From contig NZ_CP025030.1 in the NCBI RefSeq assembly GCF_002812705.1, positions 1,488,001 through 1,552,000 of the forward strand: a stretch of 64,000 nucleotides of DNA, in the 5' to 3' direction. Below the pieces are notes generated by a model. The model made no database searches. It saw nothing but the letters and a program-made list of their open reading frames with translations, and was not told where the DNA came from. This DNA is from Achromobacter spanius (GTDB taxonomy: Bacteria; Pseudomonadota; Gammaproteobacteria; Burkholderiales; Burkholderiaceae_B). The position numbers and the translations under genes were made by a program. Below, in pieces: positions 9,105 through 45,857 of the stretch. Within the stretch, counting starts at the first letter, position 1. Each line of letters starts with the position of its first letter.

Positions 9105-11978
9105 GTGAATAATCGCCGCCGTACTCCAGAAAATAAAATACAACGACGCGCGCGTCGCGCCTTGCGAACCGCATATCCGCTTCTGGCATGCATGTCGTCG
9201 TCCGTAATATTGTTTGCTGGTTCTGCCTACGCGCAGAATCTACCCATGGGCGGCAAGATCACCAGCGGACAAGGCAGTATCTCGGAGCCCAATCGCCTAT
9301 CGAAAAAAATCCAACAGACCAGCGACAAGCTATCCATTGACTGGACCAGTTTCAATATTGCCTCGGGCAGCCGGGTGGATTTTCATCAGCCCGACGCCAA
9401 TTCCATTGCCTTGAACCGCGTCGTCGGCATCAATGGCAGCAAGATCATGGGGCAACTCAACGCCAATGGCCGTGTGTTCCTGATCAACCCCAACGGGGTG
9501 TTGTTCGGCAAGACCGCGAAGGTCAACGTGGGGGGCTTGGTGGCGTCGACGTTGAAGCTGAGCAATGACGATTTCAACGAGGGCCGATTCCGCTTTGTCG
9601 GCGACGGCCGCCCGACATTGGCAAGCGTCGTCAACGAAGGCGTGTTGATTGCGGCAGAGGGCGGAACGATCGCGTTGCTGGGTGGGCAGGTTGAAAACAA
9701 GGGTGTCATCCGGGCCAAACAGGGCGCCATCGCGCTGGCAGCGGGCGAACGCATCACGCTCGGCGTTTCCGAGGATGGGCTGCTGAACGTAGAGATTGAT
9801 CAGGCGGGGTTGAATGCCTTGGTCAGCAACCACAACGCGCTGACGGCGCAGGGTGGGCAGGTGACGCTCAAAGCTCGCGCTGCCAATGCCGTGGCGCACG
9901 CGGTCGTGAATAACCAGGGTTTGATCGAAGCGCAAACGCTGAATGGCCGCTCGGGCACGATCGTGCTGGACGGTGGTGAGCAAGGCACGGTATTGGCGGC
10001 AGGCACATTGAACGCCAGCGCGTTCAGTGGCAACGCCGGTGATATTACGGTGCAAGGCCAGCGCGTGGACCTGCGTGGGAATCTACTCGCGACAGCCGGC
10101 GGACAGGGCGATGGCGGTAACGTTCTGGTCCAGGGCAGGCAAGTGCAGATGGAAGGTAGCGCCCAGGTCGATACACGCGCGGCGACGGGCAACGTTGGCT
10201 GGCTGACGCTTGAAGCGGATCAAATCAGCGTGACGACGCAGGAAGTGCCGCTGGTCAGCGGTATCAGTGGCGAGCATCTGAATCAGCAATTGGCCAAAAA
10301 CAATATCGCGCTGAAATCCACGCAAGGCGACCTTCGCGTTCTGGAAGAAATTAGCTGGGATGCCGATACGACGCTGAGTCTGGATGCGAAGAAATCCGTA
10401 CGGCTGAATGCAAATGTCGAGGTAAGCGGGGATAAGGCGGGTTTCGTGATGAACCATGGCGCCGACGCCGACTATATTTTGGGTAAGAACGTCACAGTGA
10501 CGTTGCCCGGGGCGCAAGCAAGCTTGCGCATCAATGGGCAGGATTATCAACTCATCCGCAATGTTCACGAGCTTCAGGCCGTGGAAAACAATCTGGACGG
10601 TTATTACGCCTTGGCCAATCGGATCGACGCGAGTGAGACAGCGAATTGGAATGGGGGCCGAGGATTTGTGCCGATTGGTGGAGGTCTCTGGAACCATAAA
10701 GACAGATTTAAGGGGACGCTTACCGGCTTGGGACATTCGGTCGACAATTTGACGATCAAAGTTGATTCCTCAAATACTGTTAAACAAGTAGGAATGTTCA
10801 GCAAGTCCCATGGGGTGCTTAGGAATATTGGTGTAGTCAATCAGAAAATTTCTTTAGATCGCCCTGATGCGCTTAATTATCTTGGCGGCCTGGTAGCGGT
10901 AAACTATGGCGTGGTGAAGTACGCCCATTCCTCTGGCCAAGTCACTACGACTCAATTGATGGACACGCTCGGTGGACTTGTCGGATATAACGAAGGGGAA
11001 GTGCTTTACTCAAATTCTCGCAGTGTAGTGCGAGGCGTTCCGGCTGATAGTGGTCAATTGGGAAACGCTGGTAGTTTAGTGGGCTATAACAGCGGGCACA
11101 TCGCGCACTCCTACGCGACCGGAGACGTCTACGGGGGGCTATCGGCGGCCGGAGGCTTGGTGGGAGTAAATGACCAAAAAGGGAATATTGAATATTCCTA
11201 CGCAACGGGAAATATTAATTCATTCTCCATTGCAGGGGGGTTGGTGGGCGATAATTATGGCAAAATTAGCAACAGCCATGCTCATGGAAGCACCTTTGGC
11301 CCGACTGGTTCTGGGGGGTTGGTGGGAATTAATAATGGTCAAATTAGCAACAGCCATGCTCACGGAAACTCCGGGGGGGATCAGAATGTTGGTGGACTTG
11401 TGGGGAGCAATCGACACACCGGAATCATCGCGGATTCTCGGGCATCGGGAAATGCGACACTCCGATTCGTTTTCGGACACGCAGGTGGTATTGCAGGCGA
11501 TAATTACGGGCTGATCCATCGCAGCCATGCATCGGGCAATGCAAATGGTAGCAGCGATAATGCGGTGGGGGGGGTGGCTGGATATAATGCGCGAAGTGGA
11601 ATAATCCGCGAATCTTCCGCAAGCGGTACGGCGACTGCTGGGTCGCACAACCCCAGGCATCCGATCGGTACGGTTGGCGGGCTGGTGGGGAGCAACTACG
11701 GTCTGATTGCGAATTCTTATGCCAGTGGCGCTGTTATAGGCCGTCATGATCAGGACGCAGTGGGCGGACTGGTCGGTCTCAATCGCGGTCTGATTGAGCA
11801 GTCTTATTCAAGCGGAGCCGTTACGGGCAAGGGCATCAAGGGCAGCCTGGTGGGATGGAACGTCCACCCTGATTCCTATGGGACCCTTAGCGAAATCCGC
11901 CAGTCCCTCGGTTCCGGCACCGTCAACGGTGAGGACGGCCCTCAGGTCGGTATCGACCAAGGCACCTTCGAATGGTGA
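9105..11978 (+). CDS. FHA/HMW-type TpsA exoprotein with GLUG repeats, copy 1
   Basis: Predicted secreted two-partner (type Vb) exoprotein, probably an adhesin (957 aa). A long basic signal peptide (RRR...RRARRALR, then a hydrophobic core) ends at AYA-QN near residue 44. The TPS domain follows (residues ~45-290) with the conserved NPNGVLFG motif, then a beta-helix-like region to about residue 530. About a dozen GLUG repeats (GGLVGxNxGxIxxSxAxG) fill the rest. The start is GTG, unlike the ATG of the other copies. It is 26 residues longer than copy 2 because one GLUG unit is duplicated. It carries G7 (11373-11379) and G8 (11567-11574) tracts. It ends in a block shared by all four copies (VNGEDGPQVG...GTFEW). 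No TpsB gene is near. Adhesion is inferred from the family. Confidence 0.85.
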   Translation: MNNRRRTPENKIQRRARRALRTAYPLLACMSSSVILFAGSAYAQNLPMGGKITSGQGSISEPNRLSKKIQQTSDKLSIDWTSFNIASGSRVDFHQPDANSIALNRVVGINGSKIMGQLNANGRVFLINPNGVLFGKTAKVNVGGLVASTLKLSNDDFNEGRFRFVGDGRPTLASVVNEGVLIAAEGGTIALLGGQVENKGVIRAKQGAIALAAGERITLGVSEDGLLNVEIDQAGLNALVSNHNALTAQGGQVTLKARAANAVAHAVVNNQGLIEAQTLNGRSGTIVLDGGEQGTVLAAGTLNASAFSGNAGDITVQGQRVDLRGNLLATAGGQGDGGNVLVQGRQVQMEGSAQVDTRAATGNVGWLTLEADQISVTTQEVPLVSGISGEHLNQQLAKNNIALKSTQGDLRVLEEISWDADTTLSLDAKKSVRLNANVEVSGDKAGFVMNHGADADYILGKNVTVTLPGAQASLRINGQDYQLIRNVHELQAVENNLDGYYALANRIDASETANWNGGRGFVPIGGGLWNHKDRFKGTLTGLGHSVDNLTIKVDSSNTVKQVGMFSKSHGVLRNIGVVNQKISLDRPDALNYLGGLVAVNYGVVKYAHSSGQVTTTQLMDTLGGLVGYNEGEVLYSNSRSVVRGVPADSGQLGNAGSLVGYNSGHIAHSYATGDVYGGLSAAGGLVGVNDQKGNIEYSYATGNINSFSIAGGLVGDNYGKISNSHAHGSTFGPTGSGGLVGINNGQISNSHAHGNSGGDQNVGGLVGSNRHTGIIADSRASGNATLRFVFGHAGGIAGDNYGLIHRSHASGNANGSSDNAVGGVAGYNARSGIIRESSASGTATAGSHNPRHPIGTVGGLVGSNYGLIANSYASGAVIGRHDQDAVGGLVGLNRGLIEQSYSSGAVTGKGIKGSLVGWNVHPDSYGTLSEIRQSLGSGTVNGEDGPQVGIDQGTFEW

Positions 11979-12002
11979 TCCCCTCCCCGCTGAAGTGATC
12001 CA

Positions 12003-12040
12003 AATCCCCCCGCAATTTTGCGGGGGGATTTTCATTTTTA
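12003..12040 (+). terminator. Terminator after exoprotein gene 1
   Basis: AATCCCCCCGCA pairs with TGCGGGGGGATT across a four-base loop and is followed by TTCATTTTTA. It separates copy 1 from copy 2, which has its own promoter. Confidence 0.82.
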
Positions 12041-35702: not shown

Positions 35703-36095
35703 TCAGCTACCCATGGGGGGGTAGTCCAGGTTGCCGAAGGTGACCAGGCCTTCCGCCTTGGCTTGGGCCAGTTGCGACTGCACTTGCGAACGGCTCAGCG
35801 ACGTGGCGTGTTCAGCGGCGGCGACGGGCGGGTAGTCCAGGTTGCCGAAGGTGACTTCGCCAGCGTTCTTGGCTTGGGCGAGTTCAGCTTGGACTTGTTG
35901 CGAGGTCAGGCTGGACGTCTGGGCGATGGGGGCGGGGTAGCCTTCTTCGCCGAACGTGTATTGGCCCGAAACCTTGGCTTGTTGCAGTTCGGCCTGAACC
36001 TGTGCGCGGGTCGGGCCTTGGTCGGCTTCGGCGGCTTGCGCGCCGGCAGCCAGAACGGACATGGACAGCATCAATGCGGTAGCAAGGGTTTTCAT
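35703..36095 (-). CDS. DUF4148 domain-containing secreted protein 3
   Basis: Exported protein of 130 residues with a signal peptide (MKTLATALMLSMSVLAAGAQA) and three repeats of the RxQVQxxLAQAKxxGxxTFG type rather than the two in the pair at 27.7-28.5 kb. Each repeat ends near a YPP or YPA patch. It starts after GGAGGT. The signal peptide opening resembles the other two DUF4148 proteins, but none of the CTATCTA palindromes is found upstream, so it is probably regulated separately. Function unknown. Confidence 0.88.
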   Translation of the reverse strand: MKTLATALMLSMSVLAAGAQAAEADQGPTRAQVQAELQQAKVSGQYTFGEEGYPAPIAQTSSLTSQQVQAELAQAKNAGEVTFGNLDYPPVAAAEHATSLSRSQVQSQLAQAKAEGLVTFGNLDYPPMGS

Positions 36096-36434
36096 AGCAG
36101 ACCTCCGGTGTCTTGTGAGCTTGGGATTCGAACCGCTGGCGTCATTGCCTGGGGTTCGCTTGCTGTGTCCCGATGAGATGCATTCTGTGCTCAAAGAACC
36201 CTGGGATAAACCCTTATTACCTGAAAACATCTTTCCAAATTCTGTACTAATCTATTTGGATTCCACCAGTTGGCACCATGGATGGTGATATTTCCGTCTG
36301 ATGACACGATAGATAGTGGTTGAGGGGGAGTTCGAAAGGCCGCTCGCACATCGCGGTCAGGACTAAAAAAGCAAAGCCCCGGGGCATGCCCGGGGCTAAG
36401 GGAAAGCAGACAGCGCAAACAGAGAGCAAACGCC
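36096..36434. other. Noncoding AT-rich region between DUF4148 gene 3 and DUF1090 gene
   Basis: No gene is supported here. It should contain the minus-strand promoter of DUF4148 gene 3, has a small palindrome CACCAT-GG-ATGGTG at 36274-36287, and ends with the terminator of the DUF1090 gene at 36364-36397. Its base composition is visibly richer in A and T than its surroundings. Confidence 0.55.
36364..36397 (-). terminator. Terminator of the DUF1090 gene
   Basis: AGCCCCGGG and CCCGGGGCT form a nine-base stem around GCATG. On the minus strand it is followed by TTGCTTTTTT. Confidence 0.85.
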
Positions 36435-41331: not shown

Positions 41332-42108
41332 ATGGCTCAAGCATTTGAAGCCTTGTCCGCCTGGCAGGTGATGCTGGCGGGGCTGCTGTTCTTCGGCGGC
41401 ATCTATCTGGTCTTCGGCGCGGCCACCTGGCTGCTGACCCAGCACGTGTTGCCGGCACTCGGCATAGGCCGGCCGCTGGATCCGCGCCCCTTGGGCCCCG
41501 GCCAGCTACGCCGTGAATTTGCGCAGTCCGGGCTGTCCATCCTGCTGTTCGGCACGGGCATGATCTTTCCCTGGGGCTTGCTGCAACTGGGTTGGGCGCA
41601 TCTGGACCCGAACCCAAGCTGGCAAAAAGTGGTGGTGGAAATCCTGCTGCTGGTGGCCTGGAACGATGTCCATTTCTGGATCAACCACCGCTTGCTGCAC
41701 ACCAAGCTGCTGCGCCGTTTCCACTTGCCGCATCATCGGTCCGTGGTGACCACGCCGTTCTCGACCTACAGCTTTCATCCCATCGAAGCGCTGATGCTGG
41801 GCAACGTCATCATGCTGCCCATGGTGCTGCATGATTTCAGCTTCTGGGCGTTGGCGTCGGTGCCGCTGTTCAGCCTGTTCTTCAATTGCATCGGCCACGC
41901 CAATTACGATTTTTTCCCCAAGGTGTCCTACGCGCACTGGTTCGCCGCCAGCCGGCGCCACCATCTGCACCACGCCTGCTACAACGGCAATTACGGCTTC
42001 CAGTTCACCTTCATGGACCGCTTGTTCCGCACGCGCCTGCAAGCCGAGGCCGCGGCCCCCCAGCTGGATGCCTTCCGGCGCAGAGACTCTGTTGGCGGCA
42101 AGGCTTAA
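41332..42108 (+). CDS. Sterol desaturase/fatty acid hydroxylase family protein
   Basis: Membrane di-iron oxygenase of the fatty acid hydroxylase superfamily (258 aa). The histidine boxes are visible: HFWINHRLLH (H114, H119, H123), HLPHH (H131, H134, H135), a central H in NCIGHANYD and HHLHH (H210-H214). Membrane helices flank them. Known relatives hydroxylate or desaturate lipid chains or sterols. It is the first gene of a tight four-gene group; its 3' end overlaps the next gene by 41 bases. The upstream 134 bases contain a possible -10, TATGAT, at 41294-41299. The substrate is unknown. Confidence 0.9.
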   Translation: MAQAFEALSAWQVMLAGLLFFGGIYLVFGAATWLLTQHVLPALGIGRPLDPRPLGPGQLRREFAQSGLSILLFGTGMIFPWGLLQLGWAHLDPNPSWQKVVVEILLLVAWNDVHFWINHRLLHTKLLRRFHLPHHRSVVTTPFSTYSFHPIEALMLGNVIMLPMVLHDFSFWALASVPLFSLFFNCIGHANYDFFPKVSYAHWFAASRRHHLHHACYNGNYGFQFTFMDRLFRTRLQAEAAAPQLDAFRRRDSVGGKA

Positions 42109-43000
42109 CGCGCGGCGCCGCCTGCCGTCGCTGCGCAACCGGCGCGACTGGCAAAGCCTGGCCTATCTGGCCGCGCTGCCCGCGTTGGCGGCGTGGCAAT
42201 GGGTGTACGGATTCTGGTGGCCGCTTTACGCGCTGATGCTTTTTTTGACCTTGGGCATCGGCGTCATCCATCACAACCACACGCACATCCGCATGTGGCG
42301 CGGACGCTGGACCAATCGCGCCACCGATTTCTGGATCACGTTGTTGCAGGGGCACCCGACGTTTGTGTTCTATCCGGCGCATGTGGCGAACCATCATCGC
42401 TACAAGCATGGCGCGCGCGACGCCGCGCGCACGTATCGCTTTGGCGGCGACACGAATCACCTGTGGGGCTATGTGCTGCACCCGTTCCAGGCGGGCTGGG
42501 TGCTGTACCCGATGTTCTTCGCGTGGCTGGGCCGACTGCGCCGCTACTGGCCGGGCGCGTGGCGCTACAGCATGGCGCAATACGGTGCGTGGCTGGGATT
42601 GTGGGGCGGACTGCTGGCCGTGAATCCGGTCAAGGCGCTGGTGCTGGTGATCGTGCCGCAACTGCATGGCCTGCACTGGCTGCTGGCCACCAACTACTTG
42701 CAGCACGCGCATGCCGACGGCGGGCCGCGCCCGGTGGCGGGTCTGAATTACGCGCGCAATTTCGAAGGGTTGGTCAACCCGTTGCTGTTCAATATCGGCC
42801 TGCATACCGCGCACCACGAGCATCCGCGCGCGCATTGGTCGGAACTGACCCGGCTGCATCGCGAGCACTATCGCGCGCGCGTCGACCCGGCACTTAACGA
42901 ACGTGGGCTGCTGCCCTATATGTGCCGCGTCTTCGTGCTGGCGGCGTTCGTGCCGCGTTTGCGCAGCCGTTCCCGCATGGCGCCCGAGCATGTCCGCTAG
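42068..43000 (+). CDS. Fatty acid desaturase
   Basis: Membrane fatty acid desaturase (310 aa) with three histidine boxes: HHNHTH (residues 68-73), HVANHHRYKH (105-114) and HTAHHEH near residue 245. The most plausible start is the ATG at 42068 inside the previous gene; the frame is open further upstream, but that part only shadows the hydroxylase gene. The 41-base overlap indicates translational coupling. It probably introduces a double or triple bond in an acyl chain handled by the next gene product. Not recognised as a phospholipid desaturase of the DesA type. Confidence 0.85.
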   Translation: MPSGAETLLAARLNARRRLPSLRNRRDWQSLAYLAALPALAAWQWVYGFWWPLYALMLFLTLGIGVIHHNHTHIRMWRGRWTNRATDFWITLLQGHPTFVFYPAHVANHHRYKHGARDAARTYRFGGDTNHLWGYVLHPFQAGWVLYPMFFAWLGRLRRYWPGAWRYSMAQYGAWLGLWGGLLAVNPVKALVLVIVPQLHGLHWLLATNYLQHAHADGGPRPVAGLNYARNFEGLVNPLLFNIGLHTAHHEHPRAHWSELTRLHREHYRARVDPALNERGLLPYMCRVFVLAAFVPRLRSRSRMAPEHVR

Positions 43001-43032
43001 CGTCCCATCCATTCTCCATCGAGGCCTGTCAC

Positions 43033-44964
43033 ATGCCCATCGCGTTTAATCGTGTCTACCTGGAAAGCGCCGGCTATTTCATGCCGGGCGAAGCCGTGTC
43101 CAACGACGCCATGGACAGCTACATTGCGCCGCTGAACCGGATGTCCAGCCGCATCAAAAGCCGCATCCTTGCCGAGAACGGCATCAAGCAGCGCTACTAC
43201 GCCATCGACCCGGAAGGCCAGACGGTCTACACGAACGCGCAACTGGCGGCCAACGCCATCCGCGACTGCCTGCGTCGCAACGACAGCGACCTTTCCGCCG
43301 TGTCCTTGTTGACCAGCGGGTCGTCGGGCGGCGACGCGCTGATGCCGGGCTTTGCCAACATGATCCAGGGCGAGCTTGCCGCGCAGCCGATGGAAACGCT
43401 GTCGGTGCATGGCATTTGCGCGGCGGGTGTGTCGGCGATCCAGGTGGCCGCGCAGGGCGTGGAGATGGGCGGACACGCCAGCGCTTTGGCCGTGGCCAGC
43501 GAATTGCCGTCGCGCCTGTTCAAGCGATCGCGCTTCGCGGCGCGTGGCTATGACGCGGACTTTGACGCGCACTTCCTGCGCTGGATGCTGTCGGATGGCG
43601 CGGGCGCCTTGCTGCTGGGCAACTCGGGCCGCGCGCTGGCGGGGGCATCCAGCGGCGTCCGGCTGAAACTGAAATGGGTGCATCAGCGCTCGTTCTCGGG
43701 CGACTACCCCGTGTGCATGCAACTGGGCTTGTCCGCTGACCGCCAAAAAGGCCATCTGGATTACCCGTCCTGGAACGAGGCCGAGGCCGACGGTGCGCTG
43801 TCACTGCGGCAGGACATCCGCCTGCTGCCGCATCTGTTCGACATCGGTATCCACGAGTACGCCAAGCTGGTGCGCGACGGCTGGCTGGATCCGGACCAGG
43901 TCGACCATTTCCTGTGCCATTACTCGTCTGAAAAATTCATCCCCGTGGTCGAAGACCTGATGGAAAAGGCGGGCCTGGTGATTCCGCGCGAGCGCTGGTT
44001 CAGCAACCTGGCGTGGCGCGGCAACACGGGCGCGGCGTCGATCCTGATCATGCTGGCCGAGTTTCTGGAAACGCGCGAGATCAAGCCCGGCGAACAGATC
44101 TTCTGCTACATCCCCGAGTCCGGGCGCTTCATGGCGGCCTATATGCTGCTGGAAGCCGAGGCCGTGCATGCGCCGGCCGTGACCGGAACCACGATGTCCG
44201 CCGCCAAGCCCGCTTCCCGCGACGACACGCAAAGCGATGACGCCGACGCCATCGCACCGCCGCACGATCCCGACATGGCGCCGCAAGGCCTGGGCCAATT
44301 GCTGACCGAGCTGGCCGCCATCTGGCATGACTACCGTTCGCGGGTATGGCGCACGCCAGTGGTGCGCCGGCTGCGCAACCGCCAGTTCCAGACGGCCGAC
44401 TACCTGAACTGGATGGAAAACTGGATTCCGCAGGTGCGCGAAGGCAGCAAGTGGATGCGCGAAGGCGCGGCGTCGCTGACGGAGCAATACGCGCCGCTGG
44501 CCGCGCTGATCGACATGCATGCCGGCGAAGAGCAGAACGACTTCCAGATTCTGTTCCAGGACTACCGCACGGCAGGCGGCGCGGTCGACAACATCGATGC
44601 GCTGCGCCGCAACCCCGGTGGCGAGGCACTGAACGCCTATCTGCACGGCCTGGCCGCCACGCGCGACCCGATTGGGCTGCTGGGCGCCATCTACATCATC
44701 GAGGGCACGGGCCAGCGCATCGTGTCGGCGCTGCTGCCGCTGTTGAAGGCCAGCCTGAAGCTGCCGCCCGATGCGTTCCGCTTTCTGGAATACCACGGCC
44801 ATAACGACGAACATCATCTGGCGCGTTGGTTGTCGGCGGTGGAACTGGCGCTGGATTGCGACGAAGACGGCCGCGCCGAACAGCGCATCGTGGATACCGC
44901 GCGCCGCACGGCCGCGCTGTACCTGATGCAGTTCCACCACGTGATGGAGGGCGAAGCGGCATGA
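43033..44964 (+). CDS. Ketoacyl synthase III fused to haem-oxygenase-like metal oxidase domain
   Basis: Two-domain enzyme (643 aa). Residues 1-375 are a thiolase-fold KASIII-like synthase with the full triad: C129 (HGICAAG), H296 (CHYSSEK) and N331 (GNTGAAS). A low-complexity linker (residues ~376-415) leads to a helical domain of the iron-containing redox enzyme / haem-oxygenase-like oxidase group, with candidate metal ligands E462, H496, E499/E500, E557, H588/H590, D592 and H594/H595. Such domains can carry out oxidative decarboxylation or other C-H chemistry (UndA-type). In one polypeptide they suggest that an acyl product is made, then oxidised. The stop overlaps the next start (ATGA). 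Confidence 0.82.
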   Translation: MPIAFNRVYLESAGYFMPGEAVSNDAMDSYIAPLNRMSSRIKSRILAENGIKQRYYAIDPEGQTVYTNAQLAANAIRDCLRRNDSDLSAVSLLTSGSSGGDALMPGFANMIQGELAAQPMETLSVHGICAAGVSAIQVAAQGVEMGGHASALAVASELPSRLFKRSRFAARGYDADFDAHFLRWMLSDGAGALLLGNSGRALAGASSGVRLKLKWVHQRSFSGDYPVCMQLGLSADRQKGHLDYPSWNEAEADGALSLRQDIRLLPHLFDIGIHEYAKLVRDGWLDPDQVDHFLCHYSSEKFIPVVEDLMEKAGLVIPRERWFSNLAWRGNTGAASILIMLAEFLETREIKPGEQIFCYIPESGRFMAAYMLLEAEAVHAPAVTGTTMSAAKPASRDDTQSDDADAIAPPHDPDMAPQGLGQLLTELAAIWHDYRSRVWRTPVVRRLRNRQFQTADYLNWMENWIPQVREGSKWMREGAASLTEQYAPLAALIDMHAGEEQNDFQILFQDYRTAGGAVDNIDALRRNPGGEALNAYLHGLAATRDPIGLLGAIYIIEGTGQRIVSALLPLLKASLKLPPDAFRFLEYHGHNDEHHLARWLSAVELALDCDEDGRAEQRIVDTARRTAALYLMQFHHVMEGEAA

Positions 44965-45857
44965 GCAAGGAACCCGATTTTCTGGCCAAGCCGCACGATC
45001 CGGCCGACCCCAACCCCTGGCTTGCCCTGTACCTGGACCGCAGCACGCCCTTGCCGGACAAGGTGAAGAAGGCCTGGCTGACGGACTCCAGTTGCGCCTC
45101 GCGCCAGTATCTGCTGCCGTTCCTGCGGCCGCTGGCGCGCGCCTTCATCATCCTGATTCAGGTGGTGAAGACGTTCCTGCCGCGCCGCTGGTCGCATTCG
45201 AAACTGCTGCATCGCATTCTGGCCTGGGGGCTCAAGCGCTTTGTGTCGCCCGAGGCCAACTGGCTGATCCTGCGCCACTTCCATCTGGGTGCGCAGGCGC
45301 TGGCGTTCATCGCCGCGAACTCGCCGGTGCCGATCACGACCACGCCGCTGCAACCGCTGGAAATCGATGATCTGAAAGACGAACTCTTCGTCAAACATGA
45401 CCTGAACCTGTTCAACTTCGTCATCCGCTTGAACCAGGCGCTGCGCGAGGCCGGCGTGGAAATGCATGCGCCTGAAACGGTGGACTTCTCGATGATCCAG
45501 GACCCGCCGCTGAAGTTGGAAGACATGCCGCAAGGCCGGTTGAATTTCCTGGACCTGCAAAGCGCCATTGAACTGTTCACGCCGCTGTATCAGTTGATGC
45601 TGACCGACAACGACTTCTGGCGCGCCGCCAATTCGTTGCAGTTGGACGAGACCATCGGCATCTACACGGCCAAGTTGCTGGGCGCGCCGCAGCACCTGAT
45701 CCTGGTCAACAACAGCCATCCGCTGGTGCCGCTGTCGACCTTGCGCGCGGGTTACCGCCTGGTGCTGCACGGCTTGTCCACCGAGATGCTGCACAGCTTG
45801 CTGATGGAGATGAAGGCGGCGCAGCAGGGGGCGGAACCGCCCGCGCCGATCAGCTAG
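44961..45857 (+). CDS. Uncharacterised protein in the lipid operon
   Basis: I do not recognise this 298-residue protein. It is translationally coupled to the synthase-oxidase gene (ATGA overlap). It has one hydrophobic stretch near residue 60-70 (LARAFIILIQVVKTFL) followed by basic residues, which may associate with a membrane, and otherwise looks soluble and helical (LRHFHLGAQALAFIAAN, FNFVIRLNQALRE, AIELFTPLYQLML). No catalytic motif stands out; scattered histidines and acidic residues could bind metal. Its place as last gene of the operon suggests a partner, carrier or late enzyme of the same lipid pathway. Confidence 0.8.
   Translation: MSKEPDFLAKPHDPADPNPWLALYLDRSTPLPDKVKKAWLTDSSCASRQYLLPFLRPLARAFIILIQVVKTFLPRRWSHSKLLHRILAWGLKRFVSPEANWLILRHFHLGAQALAFIAANSPVPITTTPLQPLEIDDLKDELFVKHDLNLFNFVIRLNQALREAGVEMHAPETVDFSMIQDPPLKLEDMPQGRLNFLDLQSAIELFTPLYQLMLTDNDFWRAANSLQLDETIGIYTAKLLGAPQHLILVNNSHPLVPLSTLRAGYRLVLHGLSTEMLHSLLMEMKAAQQGAEPPAPIS

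Follow-up and report, generated by a model that had tools for sequence, protein, structure and literature searches.

The genome of Achromobacter spanius considered here comprises 6.43 Mb in one contig (NZ_CP025030.1), and the stretch under study, hereafter the window, is a 64-kb piece of it (positions 1,488,001 to 1,552,000). Four genes on its forward strand form a cassette, the third of which encodes a ketosynthase (KS) domain fused to a haem-oxygenase-like oxidase (HDO) domain; it is preceded by the genes of two membrane proteins, HYD and DES, and followed by that of a DUF6999 protein. As judged by sequence comparison, this cassette is real and conserved, and it is very probably functional. 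Its parts are of known kinds, while their combination and the DUF6999 protein are uncharacterised. The features are as follows.

41332..42108, + strand: HYD, 258 residues, membrane protein of the fatty acid hydroxylase/sterol desaturase superfamily
42068..43000, + strand: DES, 310 residues from ATG 42068 (candidate start), membrane protein of the fatty acid desaturase superfamily
43033..44964, + strand: KS-HDO fusion gene, 643 residues, ATG 43033
43033..44172, + strand: StlD/DarB-type KS domain of the fusion, residues 1-380
43417-43419, 43918-43920 and 44023-44025, + strand: codons of the KS triad C129, H296 and N331
44173..44268, + strand: linker of the fusion, residues 381-412, pLDDT below 50 (low model confidence)
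44281..44961, + strand: HDO domain, with invariant H496, E500, D503, E557, H588, D592 and H595
44961..45857, + strand: DUF6999 protein, 298 residues, ATG 44961 within ATGA

Counted from the ATG at 42068, DES overlaps HYD by 41 bases, the sequence leaving the choice of start ambiguous; a 32-base gap separates the DES stop at 43000 from the ATG of the fusion gene at 43033, whose stop at 44964 overlaps the DUF6999 start codon at 44961 in an ATGA. These coordinates agree exactly with the four-gene layout described in an earlier note drawn up from this DNA alone, and the KS-oxidase fusion proposed there is borne out by a single 643-residue frame in which PF08541 and PF14518 both score above their curated cut-offs.

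The neighbourhood search for the same gene set that the earlier note had suggested gave 209 confirmed loci, the best 80 of which are referred to as relatives. HYD, DES, KS, HDO and DUF6999 follow each other in this order on a single strand in 79 of the 80, the sole exception (L079) lacking DES, and such constancy of domain order exceeds chance. The first 24 relatives are all Achromobacter, with a fusion identity of 90-96%, and both PF08541 and PF14518 are found on all 120 listed of 6,924 fusion homologues, a list that is mostly Achromobacter. DUF6999 is present in 43/43 genomes of the host's own genus, which argues that the cassette is a maintained trait.

The ketosynthase and oxidase domains

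The earlier note had labelled the KS domain "KASIII". Its Cys-His-Asn triad and fold do place it among the thiolase-fold, KASIII-type enzymes, but it is not an ordinary KASIII: it scores 333 bits against the StlD/DarB subfamily model NF005293 (cut-off 450), as opposed to 60-72 bits against FabH models. With the DarB model NF053539 it reaches 268 bits, below a cut-off of 550 that two control KSs with a DarA-like neighbour, at 504 and 464 bits, also miss. The closest protein in the PDB is StlD of Photorhabdus (5gk0, E 4.5e-65), followed by OleA, to which the window KS is 17-20% identical. C129, H296 and N331 stand intact where the earlier note had located them, and they are kept in all 37 rows of the KS alignment (15 fused, 9 unfused and 13 of the StlD/DarB subfamily).

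On the other hand, the catalytic Glu of OleA and PpyS is absent. Residue 105 is Pro in 37/37 rows, and by spacing and alignment, not structure, no Glu of the OleA E117/PpyS E105 type was found at residues 101-106 of the window KS, which reads ALMPG at 102-106; in PpyS, E105 sits 24 residues before its Cys129, where the window KS has Pro. For MxnB and CorB, the absence of this Glu has been used to argue for a beta-ketoacyl nucleophile (PMC4578411), and the window KS fits that argument. It thus resembles StlD and DarB in fold, triad, overall sequence and the lack of an OleA-type Glu, but differs from them in falling below the subfamily cut-off, in its place in the tree and in having no DarA-like partner, while the KSs of this kind differ further in being fused or adjacent to HDO and DUF6999.

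The tree comprised 38 rows: the window KS, those of 14 of the 86 fused loci (9 of L001-L080 and 5 of L092-L097), 9/9 unfused and 12/12 subfamily KSs, StlD and one FabH. The fused KSs form one clade (100/100) with the KS of the unfused Colwellia locus as its sister (97/97), while the other eight unfused KSs, from Pleionea and from another class, make up a second group (100/99) and the StlD/DarB rows a third (84/89), outside which the window KS lies. A StlD/DarB-type KS was found at E 1e-50 or better in 20/398 Pseudomonadota genomes, in which 12 KS proteins score above the NF005293 cut-off (560-601 bits) and 9 below it (302-398 bits); the below-cut-off KSs and DUF6999 occur in exactly the same 9/398 genomes. 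One genome, G379, keeps both kinds of KS, so that the two are not redundant.

The HDO domain scores 45.1 bits against PF14518 (cut-off 28.9). It was followed in two overlapping alignments, A1 (69 rows) and A3 (33 rows, without the unfused locus L108); a further alignment, A2, leaves out L069, L045 and L078. PF14518 is matched at E 0.1 or better by 33/33 A3 rows, and all seven residues listed above are invariant in 69/69 A1 and 33/33 A3 rows, so that the candidate metal ligands surmised in the earlier note for the C-terminal domain form a full invariant set by alignment. An A3 profile retrieved 3dde alone from the PDB sequences (E 1.4e-12), a haem-oxygenase-fold protein without an assigned function; the lists of PDB fold matches were filled by ketosynthase chains, and likeness to a solved HDO came only by sequence, through 3dde.

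For AetD, PMC11611611 describes an HX3(D/E)X2H ligand pattern in alpha-3 with a Glu in alpha-2, and D76 followed by H79 in alpha-1. H588-x3-D592-x2-H595 and E557 match the first two elements. In place of a carboxylate followed by His, however, the alpha-1 segment has H496-x3-E500-x2-D503 in every row of both alignments, D503 being aligned with the His of the E-x2-H pair of 3dde. The domain would therefore offer three His and no fewer than three carboxylate residues as candidate ligands, in a rearranged order. Upstream of them, residue 470 is Glu in 69/69 A1 rows and Glu (30) or Asp (3) in the 33 A3 rows. E470 may be an extra carboxylate as in SznF-type enzymes, and it may lie at the auxiliary alpha-2 place, which is a ligand in HDOs that are not triggered by substrate and a hydrophobic residue in substrate-triggered ones such as UndA (PMC11611611). 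In sum, the PF14518 profile, the alpha-3 HX3DX2H motif and the alpha-2 Glu are common to the window HDO and the haem-oxygenase-like diiron oxidases UndA, AetD, SznF and CADD, from which it differs in its alpha-1 order and in being fused to a ketosynthase. UndA, the leading analogy of the earlier note, is not supported in that role, given the different alpha-1 ligand order, the invariant carboxylate upstream and a kinship at the level of PF14518 only.

The core trio, its accessory genes and their distribution

Outside Burkholderiales, nine loci were available (L090, L091, L100, L101 and L107-L111), of which seven belong to another class of Pseudomonadota, probably the Alphaproteobacteria, the others being gamma-proteobacterial (Colwellia, Pleionea). 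In 9/9, a gene of its own encodes each of KS, HDO and DUF6999, the three lying side by side in a constant order, and neither HYD nor DES was matched beside any of them, although L110, a 5.8-kb contig, hardly tests for neighbours. The trio is thus taken as the core and HYD and DES as accessory, and the fusion as a later event in the Burkholderiales of this sample, where the open frames of the 7 trio genomes among the 398 Pseudomonadota are each 644-688 residues long. The earlier note's view that the operon makes an oxidised acyl product not yet characterised is supported, but HYD and DES drop out of its core enzymes. No consistently placed recurring neighbour was seen beside the nine trios (L110 again being too short to tell), nor a conserved acyl carrier protein, ligase or transporter adjoining them, which suggests that the substrates should come from the fatty acid synthesis of the host. 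In L091, a 188-residue frame without a Pfam match (11441-12007, minus strand) is the immediate upstream neighbour of the unfused ketosynthase gene of Colwellia.

The DUF6999 protein is a full-length member of PF22523 (441.3 bits, cut-off 27). Its model is all-helical (pLDDT 88.3, pTM 0.88), and no significant PDB fold match was found for it; the term DUF6999 was not found in the literature searched. The protein is strongly conserved, at 46-59% identity to the rows from a search with the Pleionea protein. Across an alignment of 90 rows, to which the Colwellia member does not belong, 45 columns are invariant, among them H84, R105, H106, H146, D147, D198, D218, W220, R221, D229, E230, R266 and E275. 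A guess from context is that the protein catalyses a step on the product of the oxidase.

HYD matches PF04116 with 78 bits (cut-off 31), and its histidine motifs HxxxH, HxxHH and HHxHH are kept in 85/85 rows. DES, in a frame opened 6 bases upstream of ATG 42068, matches PF00487 with 94 bits (cut-off 29.7), and its boxes H69/H73, H105/H109/H110 and H246/H249/H250 do not vary in the 83-84 rows that carry a residue at those columns. With intact histidine boxes, both are expected to be metal enzymes of the membrane that depend on O2, for which chain tailoring would be a natural role. In one genome, G316, HYD was not found at locus L094 and DES is represented by a weak match only.

Beyond the host genus, DUF6999 occurs in 55/200 genomes of the family. 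It is found in 2/149 genomes of the family and 6/337 genomes of the class of G223, and in 2/197 genomes of the order of G368, each count including the reference genome itself; a control genome, Caulobacter vibrioides, has it too, and among 120 listed of 3,307 annotated homologues there are some from Microbulbifer, Lysobacter and acidobacterial metagenome genomes. In one member of the host family (G1203:C1:2070679-2071499), DUF6999 is split into two overlapping matches in different frames, possibly a broken copy or a sequencing error. The whole cassette is also present in Pararobbsia silviterrae (Burkholderiaceae; L025:6298-10825), at 86-89% protein identity; within the Alcaligenaceae rows its KS groups with those of L001 and the window (100/99), and the Achromobacter flanks are absent, which together make horizontal transfer likely.

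These flanks consist of DHDPS and antiporter genes and were seen in 30/80 relatives, within the 8 kb or less looked at, some of the loci being truncated where their contigs end. In the Achromobacter loci L008, L015, L024 and L064, the distance from DUF6999 to the downstream antiporter gene is about 5 kb greater than in most, the segment between them being either extra in these four or lost in other relatives; longer gaps are also seen in Bordetella (L027, L036, L039). Elsewhere in the window, positions 35703-36230 on the minus strand encode a small protein with repeated LTRAQVQAEL..AK..G..TFG...YP-like units, possibly a DUF4148-like protein.

A candidate pathway and its alternatives

The reading favoured here, given about an even chance of being right, is a small lipid-type pathway in which a DarB-like condensation of two chains is followed by oxidation of the product with O2 by HDO and by a finishing step catalysed by DUF6999. 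It starts from what the sequence shows, namely the domain families, the intact catalytic and candidate metal residues, the co-occurrence of the genes and the KS-HDO fusion in the sampled Burkholderiales. C129 of the KS would be loaded with one acyl chain supplied by fatty acid synthesis; its head-to-head condensation with another acyl thioester, which as with DarB would already be a beta-ketoacyl, would yield a cyclohexanedione-like or beta-keto acid intermediate. Using O2 and two metal ions, HDO might oxidise this intermediate by aromatisation, hydroxylation or oxidative decarboxylation, and would then stand in for the DarA of dialkylresorcinol synthesis. The next, obligatory step would fall to DUF6999, HYD and DES would hydroxylate and desaturate the chains in Burkholderiales, and the fusion would channel a labile intermediate from the first active site to the second.

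Several points weigh against this reading. The alpha-1 H-x3-E-x2-D order is unlike that of AetD, so that the metal site stays a candidate only. The tree leaves the joint between the three KS groups unsettled and does not join the KSs of the trios as one clade; with these in separate groups, the trios may not all share the same chemistry. The Colwellia DUF6999 is only 27% identical to that of the window and falls outside the DUF6999 alignment, and conservation of neighbours leaves the order of the reactions unfixed. Finally, the literature searched yielded no experimentally assigned product for the gene set, although a software label, "resorcinol", exists.

That label points to an alternative, unlikely but far from negligible, in which the cassette makes a dialkylresorcinol or cyclohexanedione and HDO aromatises in place of DarA. 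Membership of the KS in the StlD/DarB superfamily speaks for it, and its failure to reach the DarB cut-off is no objection, since two controls with a DarA-like neighbour miss it as well; its score below the subfamily cut-off, its position outside the StlD/DarB tree group and the retention of both KS kinds in G379 speak against it. So does the distribution of the presumed DarA. The query used was the gene adjoining the subfamily KS in L136, which is presumed from its position to be DarA, a flavodoxin-like protein, NCBIfam giving it no name. It was searched in 16 trio genomes and in 4 controls, taken from the 11 genomes with a subfamily KS only. All four controls have it adjoining the KS (G042, the source of the query, G282, G326 and G364), while no match was found in the host genome nor in 15/16 trio genomes (one of them, G791, only 74% complete); the sixteenth, G379, has it beside its own subfamily KS. 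For comparison, the neighbouring darB and darA of Chitinophaga pinensis are reported to have given a dialkylresorcinol when expressed together (PMC3992019).

In favour of the same alternative, PMC9045304 lists a DarB "resorcinol" region found by antiSMASH in Achromobacter mucicolens. This region may well be the present operon, as the host genome yielded no further StlD/DarB-like KS, its two other matches being one FabH-like frame. Software tends to call such regions "resorcinol" because of their DarB-like gene, and the label is poorly supported, the DarA-like partner being missing from 15/16 trio genomes; HDO could, on the other hand, replace DarA, which keeps a resorcinol product among the options. 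A "resorcinol" cluster of A. xylosoxidans, reported as induced early in plants (PMC9168490), may likewise correspond to this operon.

A route to alkenes or ketones, with OleA-like condensation to a beta-keto acid and UndA-like oxidative decarboxylation by HDO, appears distinctly improbable. The KS has no OleA-type Glu, the alpha-1 ligands differ from those of UndA (compared without aligning UndA itself), and E470 would put a carboxylate where UndA has a hydrophobic residue if its placement, judged from PMC11611611, is right; an alkene is thus weakly indicated, as one option only. Protection against oxidative or drying stress by HDO, with the KS as a lipid-repair enzyme, is highly improbable: the activity of Acinetobacter DtpC does depend on an HDO-like domain, but dtpC shares an operon with katE and the main text of PMC13232832 mentions neither ketosynthase nor beta-ketoacyl, and no catalase-type gene is among the frames that recur beside the trios.

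If the favoured reading of DarB-like condensation followed by HDO and DUF6999 is right, three proteins would make up a pathway that draws its substrates from ordinary fatty acid synthesis. Tentatively, the trio, which is present in Burkholderiales, other gamma-proteobacteria and another class of Pseudomonadota, could stand for a widespread undescribed class of pathway that combines DarB-like condensation, an in-cis HDO with rearranged ligands and a DUF6999 protein with a fold new to the PDB, and whose product would be neither a dialkylresorcinol nor an alkene. The pathway, if true, would provide functions for DUF6999 and for metal oxidases of a new group, and it could correct a recurrent label of genome mining.
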